The translations under genes were made by a program, and so were the position numbers. From Patescibacteria group bacterium (GTDB lineage: Bacteria; Patescibacteriota; JABMPQ01), in the NCBI GenBank assembly GCA_018818965.1, contig JAHJQX010000022.1, positions 1 to 44,532 on the forward strand: 44,532 bases of DNA, given 5' to 3'. Shown here in pieces: positions 32,893 to 44,532 of the stretch; position 1 is the stretch's first letter; every line of letters starts with the position of its first letter. The notes beneath the pieces are model-generated. The model was given only the letters and a program-made list of their open reading frames with translations, had not been told where the DNA came from and searched no databases.

Positions 32893-35800
32893 ATGACTGA
32901 AGATAACAGATCAATTGACTCACAAGCAAAGGCCGATCTCAAGAAACTATTAGCTACTTACGGCCAGCTAAATAATCCTTTCTCAAAGTTAATAGTTAAA
33001 TTAAGACATTTTGGGCAGTGGGCGGTAAAATTGCTGGTACCTGATTTTCTGGTGGGGCATCCAAATTTGTTTGACAATTTAAAAACTTTACGTTGTCACC
33101 CGCGTTTCAAGCCATTGAGAATGTTATTAATCAGCTGGCTAATTCTCACTTTGATTGTTGGTACCTCAGGAGTTTACGTTTTACATAAAGCGCCAGATTC
33201 GATTGCCGCTGGAGCGCAGTGGCTATTTGAATCGGCCGACGATTATGCTTTTGATTCTAATAAGGTAGAAATCTCATCGGGATCAGCCAAGCTAAGTCAA
33301 GTAGATCAAACTGATAATGATTTTGCCGCTAGCGGTTTTGGTGGTGGGAAGCAATTAAATACAGAATGGGATTCAGCTGGCAGCAGTCTTGTTTTAGATA
33401 CCACCGGCCGCGAAAGTGGCAATGGAGATTTTACTTCCCGGGTGATTGATGCGGGCGGAGAAGTCGCTTGGGATAATATTAACTGGACTCCTTTGCGACC
33501 TTATGGCCGTGAGTTGCCAAATAACCAAGCAGTCGAGACTGGTTACGCTGCCGGCAATGCTGATATGTCTAAAAATGAAATGTTGTATCATCTTGATGAG
33601 ATCGCAGGCACCCTGGCCAACAGTGGTGGCGAGGGTGCAGACGGTACAGCTTATAACGAAGTGATTTATGGCGCGGAGGGGAAGTTTAACTCTGGCCTTT
33701 ATTTTGATGGCAAAGATGACTATGTTGCTCTCGATAAGCACTATAGTAAAAAGGGAGAGATTGCCAAGCTAACAACTTGTGCTTGGTTTAAAGCGGCTCC
33801 CGGCGAAGGTGGTTGGTCACTAATTGATTTTGACCGTTCTGAATATTACAACTTGGAAGTGGGTTGGAATAATCGCAGTACTGATGTAGTGAATTTTGCT
33901 ACTCGGGGACAATCAGGGGGAATTAATGACCTGCGCGGAAAAACAAATATCCGAGACAGCAAATGGCATCTAGCTTGTGGCGTCTATGATGGCAAGGATA
34001 AAATTATTTATGTTGACGGTAGAGAAGATAGTCGCACACAGAATCCACACGAAGGAGAAAAATTAGGCAGTGGGGCAACTCGTTACGGCTTTATTGGTGA
34101 TGGCTCAGAAGCGACTAGTTTTAATGGCAGTCGCAATCAAGTATATTTTAAAGGTAATATTGATGAGGTAGCTGTTTATCATGATGCTTTGTCGCCAGTG
34201 ACAATTCTTGATCAATATTTGCGGGGAGCTTTGCAGTTAAAATTTCAAGTGCGTTCTTGTGATGATGATAAATGTACAGACGAGAATTTTGTCGGACCGG
34301 ATGGTTTGACGGGGAGTTATTATACTGATACTGGCAATGTTTCCTCAATGTCTGACATATCGCTAGCTGGTATTAAGAATAATCGTTATTTCCAATATAA
34401 GGTTTACCTGTCTACTGATAATCCTGAATATACATCCGGGATTGGTCAGGTTTCTGTCGGGCCAATCCACTATCCAGCTGATTCTCCAAGTATAATTAGT
34501 AAATACCCAGCGCCGCAGTACAATAAACTGGATAGTTTTACCAGCCAGCTGGGCAAGGACAATGAAGGAACGGTAAAATATCAGCTATCTAATAATAGTA
34601 CCGATTGGTATTATCATGATGGCAGGCAGTGGTCATTAGCGTCAGCTCCAGATCAAGCCAATACTGATAAAAGAATTAGCAAGGAAATTAGTAATTTCCC
34701 GGAAGAAGTCGGAGCTGGCAACTTTTACTTTAAGGCTCTTTTGCAATCTGATGGAATACAGTCAGTGGAACTTGAGAGCCTAAATGTGGATTATTCTTTA
34801 GAGGAAGAGAAGGATGAAAAAGAGAAAGATAAAGACAAAGATGAGCCTAAAGACAAGGAGCCGAAAGAAGAGCCAGAGGATGACAGTGACAACAAAGATG
34901 ATGAAGAGGATAGCGAGCAGAAAGAGGAAGAAGAACCAACAGATCCTGATCAATCGGATGATGATGAATCTCAAAATGAGGATCAGCAAGACAATGACAG
35001 CGAAAATACCCAAGAGGAGCAGGATACTAATGACAGTAGCGACAAAGATACGCAAGACGAAAAGAAAGAAGACCAGGATAGTACCACTGATAAAACAAAA
35101 GATGACAGCCAAAAAAACGACGGTGGACCTAACACTTCGTCTTCAACTGACTCAACTAAACAAGAAGGAACAACCAATACTATCACCCAACGATCTTACA
35201 CTAATTCATCCTCAACAACGACATCTTCTCGGGTTGATACTAGTAGTGACAATTCCGATGATAATCTCAATTCAGCCGAGCTAGAAGACATTAAAAAGGA
35301 AGTTAATAATCTGTTAGCGGAAATAGAAGATTTAGAAATACAGGAGAAAGAATTAAATGGAAAGTTAGAGCAGATTAGTACAGTCAGTACCGTTGACGTT
35401 TCTAAGTTATTAGCTGATTTGCAAGTCGTTAGCCGTAAAATTGAGGTAGAAATTGGTGATTTGGTAGACAAAAATGATGTCATTGTTAATATTTTAACTC
35501 TTCCTAGTTCTAATTCAGCTAGCTTGGAAGAAGTGCGTAACAAAACATTAGATTTACAGGCGCTATTGGACAACATTAGTTACCTTCGAAGTAATGGCCA
35601 AGCACCGGCTACCACCCTCTGGTATACTTTTGGCTCAATTACTTTTAATATTCTGTTAACTAATCCTACTAGTGAAGAAAAGGATGTATTTTACAAAACA
35701 TGCCTACCGGAAGAAGTAAGAGCTGAGCACGTTTTGCAAGCTGATGGGGACTTGAATCTAGAATACAGTGAAGAGAATCAATGTCTAACGGTAGCAGTAA

Positions 35801-36339
35801 TCGATAAAATCGCTTCCCGGGGAAGTAAGGTGAAAAAGGTAGAAGTGGAAGATCTCTGGTCGATAACGGCTGTTGAATTAACTGATTGGCAGAAAAAGAC
35901 TGAGGATCTAGCAAATGAATTACAGAGCACTATGTATGCTAGCCGAGCGGGAGAGTTAAAGAAAGATAATCTTGATCGTTTGCGTAAAATTAGAGAGAAG
36001 CAAAAAGAAGATACTCATACTCCTCAGGAACACATTTTATCTTATCGAGAAACAAAAGGTGATTATGATCAGGTGAAAGCTAATGTGGCCGAATTAGAGA
36101 AGTTAAAAAAAGATCTAGCGGGATTTGGCGCTCTAGCGGCTCAGATAGGGAGAGCTAAAAAGTTTGCCAAGAGCGGGATTTACGCTGTCATAGCTTCGGG
36201 ATTGTTTCTGCTTATATTTGTAATTTATCGTATGTGGAAACATCAGATGGAGTTAGTAGCAGCCGCGATGTCAGTTAACACTGAAACTTTGTCATTTATT
36301 AAAAATCAGCGTCCCCCAATAATTAGGAAGAAAAAATAA
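32893..36339 (+). CDS. Large membrane-anchored surface protein with LamG/concanavalin-like domain
   Basis: 1148 aa; N-terminal TM, LYFDGKDDYVALDKHYSKKGEIAKLTTCAWFKA...HLACGVYDGKDKIIYVDG...GNIDEVAVYHDALS (LamG), D/E/K/S-rich linker, coiled coil, C-terminal TM. Confidence 0.8.
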   Translation: MTEDNRSIDSQAKADLKKLLATYGQLNNPFSKLIVKLRHFGQWAVKLLVPDFLVGHPNLFDNLKTLRCHPRFKPLRMLLISWLILTLIVGTSGVYVLHKAPDSIAAGAQWLFESADDYAFDSNKVEISSGSAKLSQVDQTDNDFAASGFGGGKQLNTEWDSAGSSLVLDTTGRESGNGDFTSRVIDAGGEVAWDNINWTPLRPYGRELPNNQAVETGYAAGNADMSKNEMLYHLDEIAGTLANSGGEGADGTAYNEVIYGAEGKFNSGLYFDGKDDYVALDKHYSKKGEIAKLTTCAWFKAAPGEGGWSLIDFDRSEYYNLEVGWNNRSTDVVNFATRGQSGGINDLRGKTNIRDSKWHLACGVYDGKDKIIYVDGREDSRTQNPHEGEKLGSGATRYGFIGDGSEATSFNGSRNQVYFKGNIDEVAVYHDALSPVTILDQYLRGALQLKFQVRSCDDDKCTDENFVGPDGLTGSYYTDTGNVSSMSDISLAGIKNNRYFQYKVYLSTDNPEYTSGIGQVSVGPIHYPADSPSIISKYPAPQYNKLDSFTSQLGKDNEGTVKYQLSNNSTDWYYHDGRQWSLASAPDQANTDKRISKEISNFPEEVGAGNFYFKALLQSDGIQSVELESLNVDYSLEEEKDEKEKDKDKDEPKDKEPKEEPEDDSDNKDDEEDSEQKEEEEPTDPDQSDDDESQNEDQQDNDSENTQEEQDTNDSSDKDTQDEKKEDQDSTTDKTKDDSQKNDGGPNTSSSTDSTKQEGTTNTITQRSYTNSSSTTTSSRVDTSSDNSDDNLNSAELEDIKKEVNNLLAEIEDLEIQEKELNGKLEQISTVSTVDVSKLLADLQVVSRKIEVEIGDLVDKNDVIVNILTLPSSNSASLEEVRNKTLDLQALLDNISYLRSNGQAPATTLWYTFGSITFNILLTNPTSEEKDVFYKTCLPEEVRAEHVLQADGDLNLEYSEENQCLTVAVIDKIASRGSKVKKVEVEDLWSITAVELTDWQKKTEDLANELQSTMYASRAGELKKDNLDRLRKIREKQKEDTHTPQEHILSYRETKGDYDQVKANVAELEKLKKDLAGFGALAAQIGRAKKFAKSGIYAVIASGLFLLIFVIYRMWKHQMELVAAAMSVNTETLSFIKNQRPPIIRKKK

Positions 36340-38073: not shown

Positions 38074-39048
38074 ATGGAAAGCTGGGATCTGAGATCACAA
38101 TTTCAGGAGGCCGTAAAAGCAAAAGGTGGCTGGGTTAATTGCCACGGACATTTTGATAAATCTTATTTTATTAGTAAGAAAAGTCTTGCCCAAAGTATGG
38201 TTACGATGGAAACCAAATGGCGAATGAGTGATGATATTAAAAAAAATTCTACTCAGGCAGAAGTTGAGGAGAGAATCAGAAGGGTTTTGGATAGTCTAAT
38301 TGAACAAGGGGGGCAGGCAGCGATGAGCTTCATTGACGCTTATGATGTGGTTGGCCACAAAAATATTGACGCGGCCAACAAAGTTAAAGAAGAATATAAG
38401 GATAAAATCAAATTTTATACTGCTCCTCAACCTCTGGGAGGCTTGAATGATAAAAAGGCCAGAGATTTATACGAGGAGATTACAGCCAAGATGGATTTTG
38501 CTGGCGGACTGCCGTCGTTTGACCGACCCGATGATGACAATAATTATGACTATCTATTTAGCATTGCCAAGAATTTAGGCAAGCATATTCATATCCATAT
38601 TGATCAAGAGAATAATCCGCACGAGCGAGATACGGAAAAGCTTATTAAATATACGAAAAAGTATGGTTATGAGGGGAAGGTGACGGCAATCCATGTTCTT
38701 TCTGTCTCAGCTCAACCAAAAGAATATCGCCAGAAGATCTATCGACAAATGGCCGACTTAGGTATGAATGTGATAGTCTGTCCTACCAACGTTATTAACA
38801 TGACTCAGTTGGATCAATATACTGCTCCGATTCACAATTCTATTGCTAATGTTCCGGAAATGTTAGATGCTGGCTTATTGATAGCGCTAGGCACTGATGA
38901 CATCGCTGATTTCTACAATCCTTTTTGTGATGCTGATATGTGGATTGAGTTGAGAGCACTGGCTGATGCTTGTCGATACTTTGATTTTGATAAGTTGGTT
39001 GATATTGCAACGGTAAATGGGCGAAAAATATTGGAGCTGGTTGAATAA
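38074..39048 (+). CDS. Cytosine deaminase-like amidohydrolase (CodA family)
   Basis: NCHGHFDKSYF (HxH), HIHIDQENNPHE, VTAIHVLSVSA, IALGTDDIADFYNPF metal/active-site pattern. Confidence 0.75.
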   Translation: MESWDLRSQFQEAVKAKGGWVNCHGHFDKSYFISKKSLAQSMVTMETKWRMSDDIKKNSTQAEVEERIRRVLDSLIEQGGQAAMSFIDAYDVVGHKNIDAANKVKEEYKDKIKFYTAPQPLGGLNDKKARDLYEEITAKMDFAGGLPSFDRPDDDNNYDYLFSIAKNLGKHIHIHIDQENNPHERDTEKLIKYTKKYGYEGKVTAIHVLSVSAQPKEYRQKIYRQMADLGMNVIVCPTNVINMTQLDQYTAPIHNSIANVPEMLDAGLLIALGTDDIADFYNPFCDADMWIELRALADACRYFDFDKLVDIATVNGRKILELVE

Positions 39049-39061
39049 TTAATTAGTAACT

Positions 39062-39784
39062 ATGGTCGAAGGTGAACTCCCCAGCCAAGGAGCCGAAGAG
39101 GAAATAGCGCCGGAAAAAGGACAAATAATCAGAGATATCAGAGCGGGAGATGTTGTTCAGTGGCGGGAGCATGTTGCCGACGAAGGGAATCAATCTAAAT
39201 TGAATATTCCCCCCGAGGCTTTACGCTTATTAGTACCCGAGCGGTTGTTTGAATTAGTCACTGACCCCCGGCAGGTAGAGGTGGTGCCACTAGTCTCAGG
39301 TGAGAGAGCCACAAGCTTTCTGGTAGTAGAAAAGGATGGGGAGCCGGATCGGACAGAATTTTCTCACGAAGACAGAGTAGTACTTGATCATTTTCTAACC
39401 CATGACATGAGAGGTATTGTGGAGCATGTTCAAGCTGAGGGAGATTTGAGTACAGCTGATAGATTAGTATTACTGGTAGAAATGAAAGTTTTACCGTTGA
39501 GTCATAGAAAAGGAATACAGGTTCTCAATTACCGTGACCGGCCTAGCCAGCGGGGCAAGGGAGTAGCAACTGGCTTTTACACAGAGCTCGATCGGATAAA
39601 AGAATTAGGTTTTGCATTTGTAGTCGGATCCAATGATAATCCAGAAGAAGCTGGGGGCAATTATTCATTTTATAAAGACAAATTAGGCAGAGGTTTGGTG
39701 AGTGATATCTCTCGGAGAGAAAGAGAGGAGTTGGGCATTCATAACATGGAATTTGATTCGGCCACTATAAAGTTTTTTAATTAA
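39062..39784 (+). CDS. Hypothetical protein with possible GNAT-like C-terminal domain
   Basis: VLNYRDRPSQRGKGVATGFYTELDRIKELGFAFVVGSNDN resembles GNAT Q/RxxGxG/A loop. Confidence 0.4.
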   Translation: MVEGELPSQGAEEEIAPEKGQIIRDIRAGDVVQWREHVADEGNQSKLNIPPEALRLLVPERLFELVTDPRQVEVVPLVSGERATSFLVVEKDGEPDRTEFSHEDRVVLDHFLTHDMRGIVEHVQAEGDLSTADRLVLLVEMKVLPLSHRKGIQVLNYRDRPSQRGKGVATGFYTELDRIKELGFAFVVGSNDNPEEAGGNYSFYKDKLGRGLVSDISRREREELGIHNMEFDSATIKFFN

Positions 39785-39797
39785 TCCCTAAAAATAA

Positions 39798-41405
39798 ATG
39801 GAAGAGAAACACAAGTATGTCAAAGTTGGTTATTATGAGCCGGAGCCTTCCGAGGTAAAGAAGGTGGTCTTACTCTTTTCGGGGGGACTGGATACTTCGG
39901 TGATGCTCAAGTGGATCAAGGATGTTTATAAAGCAGAGGTCATCGCTCTCTGTATTGATATTGGACAACAGGCTGATGATCTGGAAGAAGTGAAGCAAAA
40001 GGCGTTGGATCTTGGTGCGCTAAAAAGTATTGTCGTCGATGCCAAGGACGAATTTGCGGATGAATATATTGCCAAGGGTATAAAAGCCAACGGCTCTTAT
40101 CAGGGCAAATATTACCTATCTACGCCGCTTGGTCGACCGCTACTAGCAAAAATTGCTGTCCGGGTGGCTGAGGAAGAAAAGGCGGATACGATTGCTCATG
40201 GTTGTACGGGCAAAGGGAATGATCAGGTGCGGATTGAAGGAACGATAATTACTCTCAATCCCGATATGAAAATAATTGCTCCGGTGCGGGAGTGGGGGAT
40301 GGGTCGGGAGGAAGAAATAGCTTATGCCAAAAAGCATAATATTCCCGTGAAAAAAACCACCCCGGTGCCTTATTCTTGGGATGATAACATGTGGGGAGTG
40401 ACGGGTGAGGGAGGCGAGATTGAAAATCCGGCTCTGATTCCGCCGCTGAATAAAATATTACAAGTTAGCACTCTACCAGAGAAAGCGCCTAATAAATCGG
40501 AATTAGTGAAGTTGGAATTTGTTAAGGGTATTCCGGTGTCTCTCAATGGTAAGGAAATGAAGCTAGCCGATTTGATTATCAAGCTTAACAAAGTAGCGGC
40601 CAAGCACGGCGTGGGGATTTCTCACCACTTGGAAGACCGCGTGGTTGGTCTCAAGGTGCGAGGTATCTATGAGATGCCGGCCGGACATTCGATTATTACT
40701 GCCCACAAAGAGTTGGAAAAATACATGTGTACGCGGCGAGAAAATAAATTTAAGACCCTGATTGATCAGGAATGGGCCTATCTTTGTTACGGGGGGCTGT
40801 GGTATGAGCCGCTGATGGATAGTTTGAATGCCTATCTTGATAAGGTAAATGCTAAGGTAAATGGAACAGTGACCTTGCGGATGTATAAGGGTAATTGTGA
40901 TGTGGTAGCCGTCAAAGCACCGGATGCATTATTTGACGAGAAGATGGCGACTTTCATGAAATCAGAGCTATTTAATCAAAATGCGGCTCCCGGATTCATT
41001 GAGCTTTGGACACTGCAGATGAAGATGTCCAAGCGCGTGCGCAAGAATATCTTAGTTAGTATCGGTCGGGATGAGCATAAGGAACAATTGTTACCATACA
41101 TCAAACGCTTGTCAAAGCTAAAGGTAAAGCTATATGCGACTGAGGGGACAGCTAAGTATTTTGAGAAGCACGGGCTAAAAGTAACTGTTCTCTATAAGCT
41201 TTCCGAAAATAAAAAGCCCAATTTAGCTGGCTTTATCAAGCACAAACGATTTGACCTAATCATTAATATTCCAAATCGTCGCAAGAAGAAAACACTAACT
41301 GACGGCCAGCAAATTCGCAAGCAAGCACTTGAGAAGGACATCCCGATGGTGACGAGCCTTGATGTGGCGGAAAACACTATCAATAAATTAACGATAAAGA
41401 AATAG
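39798..41405 (+). CDS. argG: Argininosuccinate synthase with C-terminal MGS-like domain
   Basis: VVLLFSGGLDTSVMLKWI, STPLGRPLLAKI, HGCTGKGNDQVRIE; extra C-terminal about 125 aa NILVSIGRDEHKEQLLPYIKRL...YATEGTAKYFEKHG...LIINIPN...TDGQQIRKQALEKDIPMVTSLDVAE is MGS-like. Confidence 0.93.
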   Translation: MEEKHKYVKVGYYEPEPSEVKKVVLLFSGGLDTSVMLKWIKDVYKAEVIALCIDIGQQADDLEEVKQKALDLGALKSIVVDAKDEFADEYIAKGIKANGSYQGKYYLSTPLGRPLLAKIAVRVAEEEKADTIAHGCTGKGNDQVRIEGTIITLNPDMKIIAPVREWGMGREEEIAYAKKHNIPVKKTTPVPYSWDDNMWGVTGEGGEIENPALIPPLNKILQVSTLPEKAPNKSELVKLEFVKGIPVSLNGKEMKLADLIIKLNKVAAKHGVGISHHLEDRVVGLKVRGIYEMPAGHSIITAHKELEKYMCTRRENKFKTLIDQEWAYLCYGGLWYEPLMDSLNAYLDKVNAKVNGTVTLRMYKGNCDVVAVKAPDALFDEKMATFMKSELFNQNAAPGFIELWTLQMKMSKRVRKNILVSIGRDEHKEQLLPYIKRLSKLKVKLYATEGTAKYFEKHGLKVTVLYKLSENKKPNLAGFIKHKRFDLIINIPNRRKKKTLTDGQQIRKQALEKDIPMVTSLDVAENTINKLTIKK

Positions 41406-41476
41406 CCACACATTACCAAAAAGTAGAATTTTATTACCAAGCGGTTGACTTAATAAGCTCGACCAATGGTTGTATT

Positions 41477-41507
41477 ATCCCTCCGAATTTTGGGGGGATT
41501 TTTTTAA
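41477..41507 (+). terminator. Intrinsic terminator between argG and the AsnRS-like gene
   Basis: atccctcc-gaatttt-ggggggat-tttttt. Confidence 0.7.
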
Positions 41508-41526
41508 ACAAGTAACAAGCAAAAAC

Positions 41527-42969
41527 ATGAAAACACCACTGCCGTACGATGAACAATTTAAGAACGTGATTGGTATTGTCTCCACGTTCTTCCGCGCCAG
41601 TCAAAAACACTACGAAGAAGTTGGCTTGCAGTATGTCGAGGTTCCAACCATAGTTGGCGTAACTGGAGCCTGTGAGAACATTGACACTCTCTTCACTGTC
41701 GGAAGTCGCCTGGAGATTCCGTTATTTATTACGCAAACTGGACAACTAGCTTTAGAGTTGGCGTTACAAGAAGTACCGGGGGTTTATACTGTTATCCATA
41801 GTGGTCGGGATGAGGAGGAAGAAGATAATCGACATTTGCGGCAATTTAGGTTAACAGAGGAGGAGTTTGATTGCACTATGGCTGGTATGACCAGAGAAAA
41901 TTATGATGAGGAAAAGATGTATGAAGCTCTGCTCCAGCATATTGAAGCAGCCGTTAAGGCTATGATTGCTGGTGTGCTAGCTGATCATAAAGATATATTG
42001 CGGAACTCGTATCAGCGAGATACGAAGGCGTTAGCAGAAATTGTCCAGCGAGCGTTTTTGCGTATTTCCTATGATGAGGCAGTGGAATTATTGAAAGAGA
42101 ACGGCTTCCCTAAATTAAAATGGGGCGATGATCTGGAATCAAACCATGAAGCGAAAGTAGTGGAATTACTTAATAAAAAAGAAGGCCATAGCGACGATAT
42201 CCAGCAACATTCGCCGGTGCTAATTATGCGTTATCCCAAGGAGATCAAATTTTTTAACATGAAGGTCTCAAATAAAGACAATCGTGTTTGCTTGTCAGCC
42301 GATTGTATTTTCCCCTATGCCGGAGAGGGAGTGGGAGCAGCTGTTCGGGAAGAGAACGGCCAGAAAATGAAAGATCGTTTGTTAACTTCACCGATGTTTG
42401 AGCTTCATCAGAAGCGAGGCGGTAAGTTTGATGATTTTAAGTGGTATATCGAAGATACTATTATGGCGGGGAAAACTAATCCGCACGCGGGCTATGGTGT
42501 CGGCAATGAGCGCTTGATTCAATTTATCATGGGTCAGTCTGATATTAGGTTTGGTTCAACCTTTAGTCTAATGGAGGAAAGAATGCAAGATTGGAGTCGA
42601 GATAATCGCAAGCGAGCTCTAATCAGTGTTGGTCGAGATGAAGATAAAGAAAAATTATTACCTTATCTCAAGCAACTAGACAAGTTATGTTCAGAACTCT
42701 ACGCTACCGAGGGGACGGCTAAATATTTACAAGATAATGGTATCAACGCCAAGATTTTGTATAAAATATCGGAAAAGAAGGAGCCCAATATTATGGAATA
42801 TCTGGAGTATAAGAGATTTGACCTAATTGTTAATATTCCTAACGATCAGAAAAAAGACGCCGTGACAGACGGATCTTTGATTCGCAAAAAGGCAGTGGAA
42901 AGAGAAATACCTTTATATACCACCATGGATGTAGCTAAGAATTTAGTTGATAAGATGGTGGGGAAGTAA
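41527..42969 (+). CDS. Class II Asx-tRNA synthetase-like catalytic core (probable asparagine synthetase) with C-terminal MGS-like domain
   Basis: Motif 2-like GRDEEEEDNRHLRQFRLTEEEFD, motif 3 GYGVGNERLIQFIMGQSDIR; no N-terminal OB-fold; C-terminal ALISVGRDEDKEKLLPYLKQL...YATEGTAKYLQDNG...LIVNIPN MGS-like. ATG 41527 preferred to TTG 41470. Confidence 0.82.
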   Translation: MKTPLPYDEQFKNVIGIVSTFFRASQKHYEEVGLQYVEVPTIVGVTGACENIDTLFTVGSRLEIPLFITQTGQLALELALQEVPGVYTVIHSGRDEEEEDNRHLRQFRLTEEEFDCTMAGMTRENYDEEKMYEALLQHIEAAVKAMIAGVLADHKDILRNSYQRDTKALAEIVQRAFLRISYDEAVELLKENGFPKLKWGDDLESNHEAKVVELLNKKEGHSDDIQQHSPVLIMRYPKEIKFFNMKVSNKDNRVCLSADCIFPYAGEGVGAAVREENGQKMKDRLLTSPMFELHQKRGGKFDDFKWYIEDTIMAGKTNPHAGYGVGNERLIQFIMGQSDIRFGSTFSLMEERMQDWSRDNRKRALISVGRDEDKEKLLPYLKQLDKLCSELYATEGTAKYLQDNGINAKILYKISEKKEPNIMEYLEYKRFDLIVNIPNDQKKDAVTDGSLIRKKAVEREIPLYTTMDVAKNLVDKMVGK

Positions 42970-42982
42970 TAAGCCATAATAA

Positions 42983-43014
42983 TAAGACCAGATTTTTGCG
43001 GGAGTCTGGTCTTT
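42983..43014 (+). terminator. Intrinsic terminator between the AsnRS-like gene and pyrD
   Basis: aagaccaga-tttttgcggga-gtctggtctttt. Confidence 0.8.
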
Positions 43015-43067
43015 TGTGGTAAAAATATTTGTGTTATAATATGCTGCAAATAAGCCAAAATAACCAC

Positions 43068-44021
43068 ATGAACACCAAAATCACCTTTCTCGACAAAGAA
43101 TTCGCCAATCCAATCGTGACAGCTTCGGGCGTTTTAGGAGTAACGGGCGCCACCATGGTCAATAACGTCAAAGAAAAGGGCGTCGGGGGAGTGACTATGA
43201 AATCTGTCTCCGTCGAGCCACGCGAGGGGCATCCGAACCCGACGATTACTACTGGCGAGCATTTTATGATTAACGCGGTTGGTTTGTCCAACGCTGGGGC
43301 AGAAAACAGCGTCAAAGAAATCAAGTATTATAAGGAAAATTGTCAGGCACCGCTGATTGCCAGTGTTTTTGCGGGCGATGTTGAGGAATTTGGCGAGGTG
43401 ACCAAGAAAATCAGCGAAGCTAGCCCAGATTTTATCGAGGTAAATATCTCTTGCCCGAATGTCGAAGATGAATTTGGCAAGCCCTTTGCGGCTGATCCAG
43501 AGCTAGCCGCAGAAGTAACTAAGATCGTGAAAGAAAACACTGATATTAAAGTAATTGTGAAGTTATCGCCCAATGTGTCGAGTATCGGTATGATCGCTCA
43601 AGCGGTGGAGGCGGCCGGAGCAGATGCGATATGTGCCGTAAATACCTTTAATGGTACGTTAATAGATGTGCGGACACGTGAATTTGTGCTGCACAATAAA
43701 TTTGGCGGTGTTTCCGGTCCAGCGATCAAACCGATGGCGGTAAAAGCAGTCTATGATATCAGCCAGGCAGTCAAGATTCCGATCATTGGTACCGGCGGAG
43801 TAACCACGGGTCAGGATGTGCTGGAGATGATGTTAGCGGGAGCGACTCTGGTTGGCGTTGGTTCAGCTGTTTATTTTGGTGGTGGCAAGGATGTATTTGC
43901 CAATATGATGGGGGAAATAGAGCAGATTATGAAGGAAGAGGGGGTTGAAGATTTGACGGAGATGATTGGTGGAGTGAAATCAGGTGATGAGCCAGCCAAG
44001 GCTTGTGTGGTAAAGAAATAA
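43068..44021 (+). CDS. pyrD: Dihydroorotate dehydrogenase, class 1B catalytic subunit
   Basis: NPIVTASGVLG, EVNISCPNVEDEFGKPF, VIVKLSPNVSSIGMIAQAVEAAGADAICAVNTF, IIGTGGVTTGQDVLEMMLAGA. ATG 43068 preferred. Confidence 0.95.
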   Translation: MNTKITFLDKEFANPIVTASGVLGVTGATMVNNVKEKGVGGVTMKSVSVEPREGHPNPTITTGEHFMINAVGLSNAGAENSVKEIKYYKENCQAPLIASVFAGDVEEFGEVTKKISEASPDFIEVNISCPNVEDEFGKPFAADPELAAEVTKIVKENTDIKVIVKLSPNVSSIGMIAQAVEAAGADAICAVNTFNGTLIDVRTREFVLHNKFGGVSGPAIKPMAVKAVYDISQAVKIPIIGTGGVTTGQDVLEMMLAGATLVGVGSAVYFGGGKDVFANMMGEIEQIMKEEGVEDLTEMIGGVKSGDEPAKACVVKK

Positions 44022-44038
44022 TAGCAAAATATAAATAT

Positions 44039-44532
44039 ATGAAAAATAACAGCGAACAGCCAACCATACTAGTGATCAAAAAAGTTGTTCAGGAGACAGA
44101 GTCAATTAAGACTTATACTTTTGAGTATAAATTAGGAGCTCAGTCAGGTCAATTTGTCATGCTTTGGATCCCACGAGTAGATCAGAAACCGATTAGTATC
44201 TCCCGGCAGACTGACAGCAGCTTTGACCTAACAGTTTTCAAAATTGGCAAGGCGACCAATGCTATGTTTGCCATGAAAGAAGGCGATAAAGTCGGCATTT
44301 CTGGCCCTTATGGCCGAGGATTTGAGATTAAGCCAAAGACAAACATTGTATTGGTAGGCGGCGGTTGTGGCTCGGCGCCACTGCGGATGGTAGGTGAGGA
44401 AGCGGAGAAGGCCGGCTGCAAAGTAACATTTATCACTGGCGCCAAGACTGGCAAAGATGTGTTATTTAAAGACGCTTTACCAGATACTTGTATTACTACT
44501 GATGATGGCTCGGAAGGTTTCAAAGGATTTAC
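44039..44532 (+). CDS. pyrK: Dihydroorotate dehydrogenase electron transfer subunit (truncated by window end)
   Basis: MKNNSEQPTILVIKKVVQETESIKTYTFEYK...GQFVMLWIPRVDQKPISIS...GPYGRGFEI...IVLVGGGCGSAPL; follows pyrD. Confidence 0.9.
   Translation, partial: MKNNSEQPTILVIKKVVQETESIKTYTFEYKLGAQSGQFVMLWIPRVDQKPISISRQTDSSFDLTVFKIGKATNAMFAMKEGDKVGISGPYGRGFEIKPKTNIVLVGGGCGSAPLRMVGEEAEKAGCKVTFITGAKTGKDVLFKDALPDTCITTDDGSEGFKGF

Follow-up and report, generated by a model that had tools for sequence, protein, structure and literature searches.

What is accomplished by a gene cluster in which an argininosuccinate synthase and a protein resembling asparaginyl-tRNA synthetase (AsnRS) both carry an MGS domain and stand before genes of pyrimidine synthesis? 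The question arises at the end of a 44,532-nucleotide stretch of DNA from a Patescibacteria group bacterium (assembly GCA_018818965.1, JAHJQX010000022.1), referred to here as the window, which is the whole of contig C19 of its source genome, G000. From position 38074 to the contig end, which cuts pyrK, the genes run codA-like, hypothetical, argG-MGS, AsnRS-like-MGS, pyrD and pyrK, every one on the + strand, and the open reading frame (ORF) coordinates agree in this with an earlier reading of the sequence (the original prediction). We consider it fairly likely that the locus encodes the opening steps of a remodelled route of de novo pyrimidine synthesis, in which carbamoyl-phosphate synthetase, aspartate carbamoyltransferase (ATCase) and dihydroorotase have been replaced. 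The substitution of enzymes is well supported by gene content, synteny, replacement and motif conservation; the substrate of the codA-like enzyme, the closure of the ring and the source of citrulline are what we infer in addition.

Loss and replacement of the first pyrimidine enzymes

In G000, which is 100% complete, we found no CarB (PF02787), no match to TIGR00857, the model by which PyrC was judged, anywhere, and no argininosuccinate lyase (ArgH). The same locus in a congeneric genome, G001, holds carA-carB-pyrB, divergent argG and argH, a gene resembling that of ornithine carbamoyltransferase (OTCase), and pyrC. The flanks are shared (69% identity for the left neighbour, 93% for PyrD and 87% for PyrK) and the contents differ, with no match to the window's codA-like protein, hypothetical protein or AsnRS-like catalytic domain within the corresponding stretch of G001; the module therefore occupies exactly the site of the front-half pyrimidine genes of its relative.

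The same loss is seen more widely. CarB and PyrC were not found in G021, G052, G149, G167, G207 and G275, as in G000, and G027 and G238 have no CarB and no PyrC above cut-off. G207, G167, G149 and G275, which are 99-100% complete and two of which are single-contig, yielded no carbamoyltransferase at all, and in them pyrD, pyrE and usually pyrF adjoin the ArgG-MGS gene. In a first set of genomes, PyrC scored above cut-off in none of the 10 with ArgG-MGS-linked or window-type codA-like genes, as against about eight of nine of the Peregrini-/Gracilibacteria type (Fisher p ~1e-4, for a grouping chosen after the data had been seen, so that the p-value is a guide only). A second set comprised 30 genomes behind codA-like loci, 27 of them from the Candidate Phyla Radiation (CPR). 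Neither OTCase nor ATCase was found in 26 of these 27, and PyrC exceeded its cut-off in one alone, G400, which is also the sole carbamoyltransferase exception and carries its codA-like gene (locus L162) beside a complete carAB-pyrB-pyrC; four other CPR genomes gave weak or partial PyrC matches.

A codA-like amidohydrolase and its argininosuccinate partners

The codA-like gene was recovered from 23 of 384 scanned genomes of the phylum, four of these weakly similar, and a scan of named genomes gave 80 loci, mostly in CPR bacteria (Magasanik-, Komeili-, Nomura-, Doudna-, Lipton-, Uhr-, Peregrini-, Gracili-, Beckwith- and Woesebacteria) with a few elsewhere. The original prediction had treated this gene as a bystander, which it probably is not: among 87 non-duplicate copies, ArgG or ArgH lies nearby in 76 and pyr or car genes lie within 7 kb in 35, several of the remainder standing at contig ends. 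Adjacency to pyr genes, which it had proposed to look for in relatives, holds across many CPR lineages. Tight operons recur, with the order CodA-ArgH-PyrD-PyrK-PyrE in L128 and L139 (gaps of 14, 0 and 1 bases from CodA through PyrK in L128, with PyrE overlapping), CodA-ArgG-MGS-PyrD-PyrK-PyrE in L170, CodA-ArgH-AspA-PyrD-PyrK-PyrE in L171, where an aspartase stands between ArgH and PyrD, and ArgG-MGS-CodA-PyrE-(PyrF-like)-PyrDK in L187. Across the CodA tree the partner is now ArgG-MGS, now ArgH, as expected if both supply argininosuccinate, and the ArgH proteins that adjoin codA-like genes retain the catalytic loop GSSxMPQKxN. The codA-like protein is probably the key enzyme of the locus.

What kind of enzyme is it? 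Encoded at 38074-39048 (+), the window's protein belongs to NCBIfam family PRK06886 (367 bits, cut-off 340), which is annotated as "hypothetical protein", and scores 96, 87 and 73 bits against cytosine deaminase models whose cut-offs are 438, 403 and 483. Its AlphaFold2 (AF2) model (pLDDT 92.4) finds its best PDB matches among cytosine deaminases (TM 0.82-0.87), with AtzC at 0.80. With CodA and AtzC it shares the amidohydrolase fold and the metal-site residues, conserved among codA-like proteins as H24, H26, H175, H207 and D275 (HxH / H / H / D), and it has the HxHxDK motif of AtzC. It differs from them in forming a separate family, in its partners (ArgG/ArgH and PyrD/E/F) and in the invariant Gln178 that aligns with Glu217, the catalytic glutamate of CodA; because of this replacement, we do not regard it as a plain cytosine deaminase. 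The chemistry that we propose would be common to all three, namely hydrolytic cleavage of the C-N bond that joins an exocyclic amine to a six-membered ring, and the difference would lie in the substrate, which we suggest to be argininosuccinate or its cyclic form.

Two irregular loci may be recorded here. In G207 the codA-like gene (L048:10241-11041) is split in two frames (C1:1005303-1005971 and 1005988-1006179), which may be a genuine frameshift or a mistake in the assembly, and in G001 the ArgG and ArgH encoded at L065:12189-14912 depart from the usual active-site motifs (GRGADAFR; no GSSxMPQK loop was seen).

The ArgG-MGS protein (39798-41405, +) scores 511.8 bits against NF001770 (cut-off 334) and 452.5 against TIGR00032 (cut-off 268.2), and, like ArgG-MGS proteins generally, it has the SGGLDTS ATP loop, the aspartate-site GNDQVR and the citrulline-site E(D/N)R..GxKxRxxYE. 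It cannot make arginine in the usual way, because ArgH was not found in eight of the nine named ArgG-MGS genomes (G000, G207, G167, G149, G275, G218, G052, G027 and G021) and OTCase was mostly not found in them either; arginine biosynthesis was rejected as its role on these grounds. Judged by its motifs and its sister proteins, citrulline would be its likeliest substrate, since the MGS-less sister ArgG proteins of G014 and G035 adjoin ArgH. An enzyme of the arginine deiminase (ADI)/dimethylarginine dimethylaminohydrolase (DDAH) family may supply the citrulline where it is present. As an obligatory second enzyme, such a guanidino-modifying protein was rejected, being found in four of 17 genomes and not in G000.

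A proposed route through argininosuccinate

How might these enzymes build a pyrimidine? ArgG-MGS would couple aspartate, at the expense of ATP, with citrulline or a similar ureido compound to give argininosuccinate; in related lineages ArgH, running in reverse, could make the same compound from arginine and fumarate, with fumarate supplied by aspartase. The codA-like amidohydrolase would then cleave the link that holds the guanidino carbon to the nitrogen of ornithine, releasing ornithine and dihydroorotate (or carbamoyl-aspartate), and PyrD-PyrK, PyrE and PyrF, the last two known here from the loci of relatives, would complete the path to uridine monophosphate (UMP). The six-membered anhydride of argininosuccinate is an N-substituted 2-imino-dihydroorotate, the hydrolysis of which gives dihydroorotate and ornithine, and AtzC takes an alkylamine off a six-membered ring. 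The codA-like enzyme could hydrolyse cyclic argininosuccinate straight to dihydroorotate and ornithine, much as AtzC releases isopropylamine, and the atoms of this step balance (C10H18N4O6 = C5H12N2O2 + C5H6N2O4). Argininosuccinate anhydrides have been measured as species 18 mass units lower (PMC11016166), and the change from a guanidino to a ureido group is energetically very favourable, by about 37.7 kJ/mol for arginine deiminase (PMC13260591), so that it could pull both the reversed ArgH reaction and the ring closure. If this is true, it is the guanidino or ureido group of arginine or citrulline that would provide C2 and N3 of the pyrimidine ring.

Set beside the canonical UMP pathway (CarAB-PyrB-PyrC-PyrDK-PyrE-PyrF), the proposed one would keep the last three steps and the MGS-type control of the first committed enzyme; it would differ in that ArgG-MGS (or ArgH) and the codA-like enzyme replace CarAB, PyrB and PyrC, and carbamoyl phosphate would be unneeded. 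Thermococcus kodakarensis is also devoid of carbamoyl-phosphate synthetase and draws the ring carbon from arginine by way of ArcE/ArcB (PMC13260591), but there OTCase cleaves citrulline to carbamoyl phosphate, which ATCase then uses, whereas most genomes here have no carbamoyltransferase and argininosuccinate would be split instead. Supply of the Thermococcus kind, through arginine-derived carbamoyl phosphate, was rejected for those genomes in which no carbamoyltransferase was found.

Arginine and pyrimidines are said to be made from carbamoyl phosphate in every domain of life (PMC13260591). The open-access literature held nothing relevant on a path from argininosuccinate to pyrimidines or dihydroorotate in CPR bacteria, on ArgG-MGS, on PRK06886 or on an argininosuccinate hydrolase, which is not proof of novelty. 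A route to the pyrimidine ring that is free of carbamoyl phosphate would appear to be new and without a counterpart known to us, and it hinges on the activity of the codA-like enzyme. To the broader proposition, that a pathway of this kind is widespread in the CPR, turning argininosuccinate into dihydroorotate and ornithine under a transferable, UMP-sensing MGS domain on the committed enzyme, we would give an even chance. Were it true, the pyrimidine ring could be reached in two ways and the textbook pathway would change; the CPR genomes that have pyrD/E/F and seem "incomplete" for pyrimidine synthesis, gaps that have been interpreted as host dependence (PMC8407418, PMC11974145), would be accounted for; the PRK06886 family would gain a function; and the regulatory domain of CarB would be shown to move onto each new committed enzyme.

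Two related MGS modules and their proposed ligand

The module of ArgG lies at 41028-41402 (PF02142 at residues 431-519, E 2.8e-19) and that of the AsnRS-like protein at 42592-42966 (residues 396-484, E 1.6e-17), both on the + strand and both above the curated cut-off. They are identical in 67 of 124 aligned columns (54%), in good agreement with the 65 or so of 118 that the original prediction had counted by hand, and each is the other's closest relative among the modules compared, the next best reaching 49% and 48%. The fusions are real and not confined to one assembly, for ArgG-MGS occurs in more than 15 genomes, and G207, a genome in a single contig, has the two fusions near each other with only a codA-like gene in between. 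Across G000 the two window fusions are the sole PF02142 domains; whether this genome has a CarB, with or without an MGS domain of its own, had been asked, and CarB is absent.

In Escherichia coli CarB, Ser948, Thr977 and Lys993 are reported to be critical for UMP control (PMC6245113). Their equivalents are retained in both window modules by alignment, as part of a pocket (S948/K954/T974/T977/K993/N1015/D1025 in E. coli CarB numbering) conserved identically in the two, and this, together with the synteny with pyr genes across many CPR lineages, supports the proposed link of the modules to pyrimidine status. The module on the first enzyme would bind UMP or a similar nucleotide, the ligand being suggested by these residues, and give feedback of the CarB kind. 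What the window modules have in common with the MGS domain of CarB is the Pfam domain and the UMP-pocket residues; what differs is the attachment, here to ArgG, the AsnRS-like enzyme, PyrB or the codA-like enzyme rather than to CarB. Modules from these four proteins mostly cluster away from those of CPR CarB (tree support 80/91), which is consistent with one regulatory cassette having moved among committed enzymes. In four loci (L191:503-1945, L193:9560-10951, L195:2803-4236 and L199:9533-10969) the codA-like protein itself bears an N-terminal MGS domain; the hosts are Berkelbacteria and bins that carry the labels Gemmataceae, Terriglobia and Akkermansia.

Two further arrangements were seen. 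In L193 pyrF directly follows the MGS-fused codA-like gene, and one CPR family has an ATCase-MGS fusion (L055:13120-14457, L056:12862-14181 and L057:2220-3530), those of its loci with enough sequence (L055 and L056) also carrying CarB.

The second MGS-bearing protein of the window is less constant. Encoded at 41527-42969 (+), the AsnRS-like protein has the motif 2 and motif 3 arginines of class II enzymes and no anticodon-binding domain; it reaches 148.8 bits against the asparaginyl-tRNA synthetase model TIGR00457 (cut-off 342.6), in a match that starts at profile position 132, and 39.6 bits as asparagine synthetase A (cut-off 368), and its AF2 model is poor (pLDDT 58). Its catalytic domain is rare (four of 384 genomes, two with MGS). 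Archaeal asparagine synthetase A, an AsnRS paralogue (PDB 3p8t), likewise has an AsnRS-type catalytic domain without the anticodon-binding domain, but the window protein falls far below its models, has an MGS domain and sits in a pyrimidine cluster. It is possibly a variable accessory that would activate the beta-carboxylate of aspartate for ring closure or make asparagine.

Contrary evidence and alternative explanations

Several observations weigh against the argininosuccinate route. The absences were drawn from metagenome-assembled genomes, and TIGR00857 was the single model used for PyrC. About half of the codA-like genes adjoin ArgH without adjacent pyr genes, and eight or nine of the genomes with such pairs carry the canonical pathway too, so that the role of the ArgH-paired clade may be a different one. 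In G218, ArgG-MGS stands next to CarAB/PyrB/PyrC and the codA-like gene is missing; G368 (L108:6991-14356) has carA-carB-codA-like-argH, with no carbamoyltransferase detected and without canonical PyrC; and L121, whose codA-like protein is the closest to the window's, shows neither arg nor pyr genes nearer than 10 kb. In G000 itself no ADI-family gene was found as a source of citrulline, and the genome retains, as its one carbamoyltransferase-like protein, a divergent ATCase-like one (L119:7353-8285, contig C43), in which HAVG replaces HPTQ and which scores below the asp_carb_tr cut-off.

That protein is 84.5% identical to one in G001 (L118:7073-8005, contig C71). We doubt that it works as PyrB, given its altered motif, its score and its persistence in G001, where CarB and PyrB are normal and an OTC-like protein is also present. 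Among the codA-like/argH pairs that lack pyr neighbours are those of L109-L117 and of further Peregrini-/Gracilibacteria loci, and these pairs perhaps serve arginine catabolism.

The alternative that survives best, though we hold it unlikely, is that linear argininosuccinate is the substrate from which the codA-like enzyme forms carbamoyl-aspartate, and that the ring is closed by an unrecognised dihydroorotase or, in G000 and G207, by the AsnRS-like protein. Hydrolysis of the linear form is chemically simpler, and the class II adenylation motifs kept in the AsnRS-like protein could activate the beta-carboxylate; but canonical dihydroorotase is gone from almost all these genomes, and the AsnRS-like-MGS gene occurs in only two of the codA-like loci.

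ArgG-MGS might instead join aspartate to urea or another ureido donor, yielding guanidinosuccinate that the codA-like enzyme would cyclise and deaminate to dihydroorotate, with no ornithine involved. CodA-type enzymes deaminate cyclic amidines, as is known of the family, and the fold match to cytosine deaminase and the want of a citrulline source in G000 fit this idea, as do changes at two positions near the citrulline pocket of ArgG (S to P in STPLGRP, S to T in WGVT). The same changes, however, are present in the ArgG of G014 and G035, which pair with ArgH, and dozens of loci pair the codA-like gene with ArgH, whose substrate is argininosuccinate; we therefore judge this reading improbable.

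We give no more credence to salvage or catabolism, in which there would be no de novo synthesis and the codA-like protein would be a base deaminase recovering pyrimidines, or orotate would be run backwards to arginine and ATP. CPR bacteria are often described as being without complete nucleotide synthesis (PMC8407418, PMC11974145), and the fold again speaks for a deaminase; yet the cytosine deaminase scores and the exchange of the catalytic glutamate speak against one, PyrE and PyrF co-occur within operons, MGS domains are typical of biosynthetic feedback, and the ArgG/ArgH partners would go unexplained.

Least probable is the model of the original prediction, in which a shared sensor, carried by two enzymes that consume aspartate, keeps the synthesis of arginine, asparagine and UMP in balance: both fusions are real, their nucleotide pocket is conserved and G207 has both too, but with ArgH absent from eight of nine ArgG-MGS genomes and OTCase from most the product is not going to arginine, and with CarB, PyrC and a normal PyrB missing from G000 no canonical pyrimidine branch is left to balance.

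Other features of the window

Between codA-like and argG-MGS, positions 39062-39784 (+) encode a lineage-specific hypothetical protein of 240 amino acids, with no Pfam or NCBIfam match and no homologue across the fetched loci. The original prediction had cautioned that terminators interrupt the cluster, and the sequence bears this out: a terminator-like hairpin at 41477-41499 (+) in the gap after argG-MGS, and a perfect 9-bp inverted repeat with a 12-nt loop at 42984-43013 (+), terminator- or attenuator-like, 5' of pyrD. Because of them, the AsnRS-like gene and pyrD may each be transcribed on their own in G000. The first hairpin sits within the 5' end of the AsnRS-like ORF, which opens at 41470, so that the gene probably starts at the ATG at 41527. 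The NAD-type dihydroorotate dehydrogenase gene, pyrD, lies at 43029-44021 (+; PRK07259, 325 bits, cut-off 269), and pyrK, for its electron transfer subunit, extends from 44003 to 44532 (+; PRK00054.1-1, E 3.4e-47), where the contig end truncates it. Upstream of the cluster, positions 32893-36339 encode a protein of 1148 amino acids, a long part of which is acidic, of low complexity and rich in Asp, Glu and Lys.

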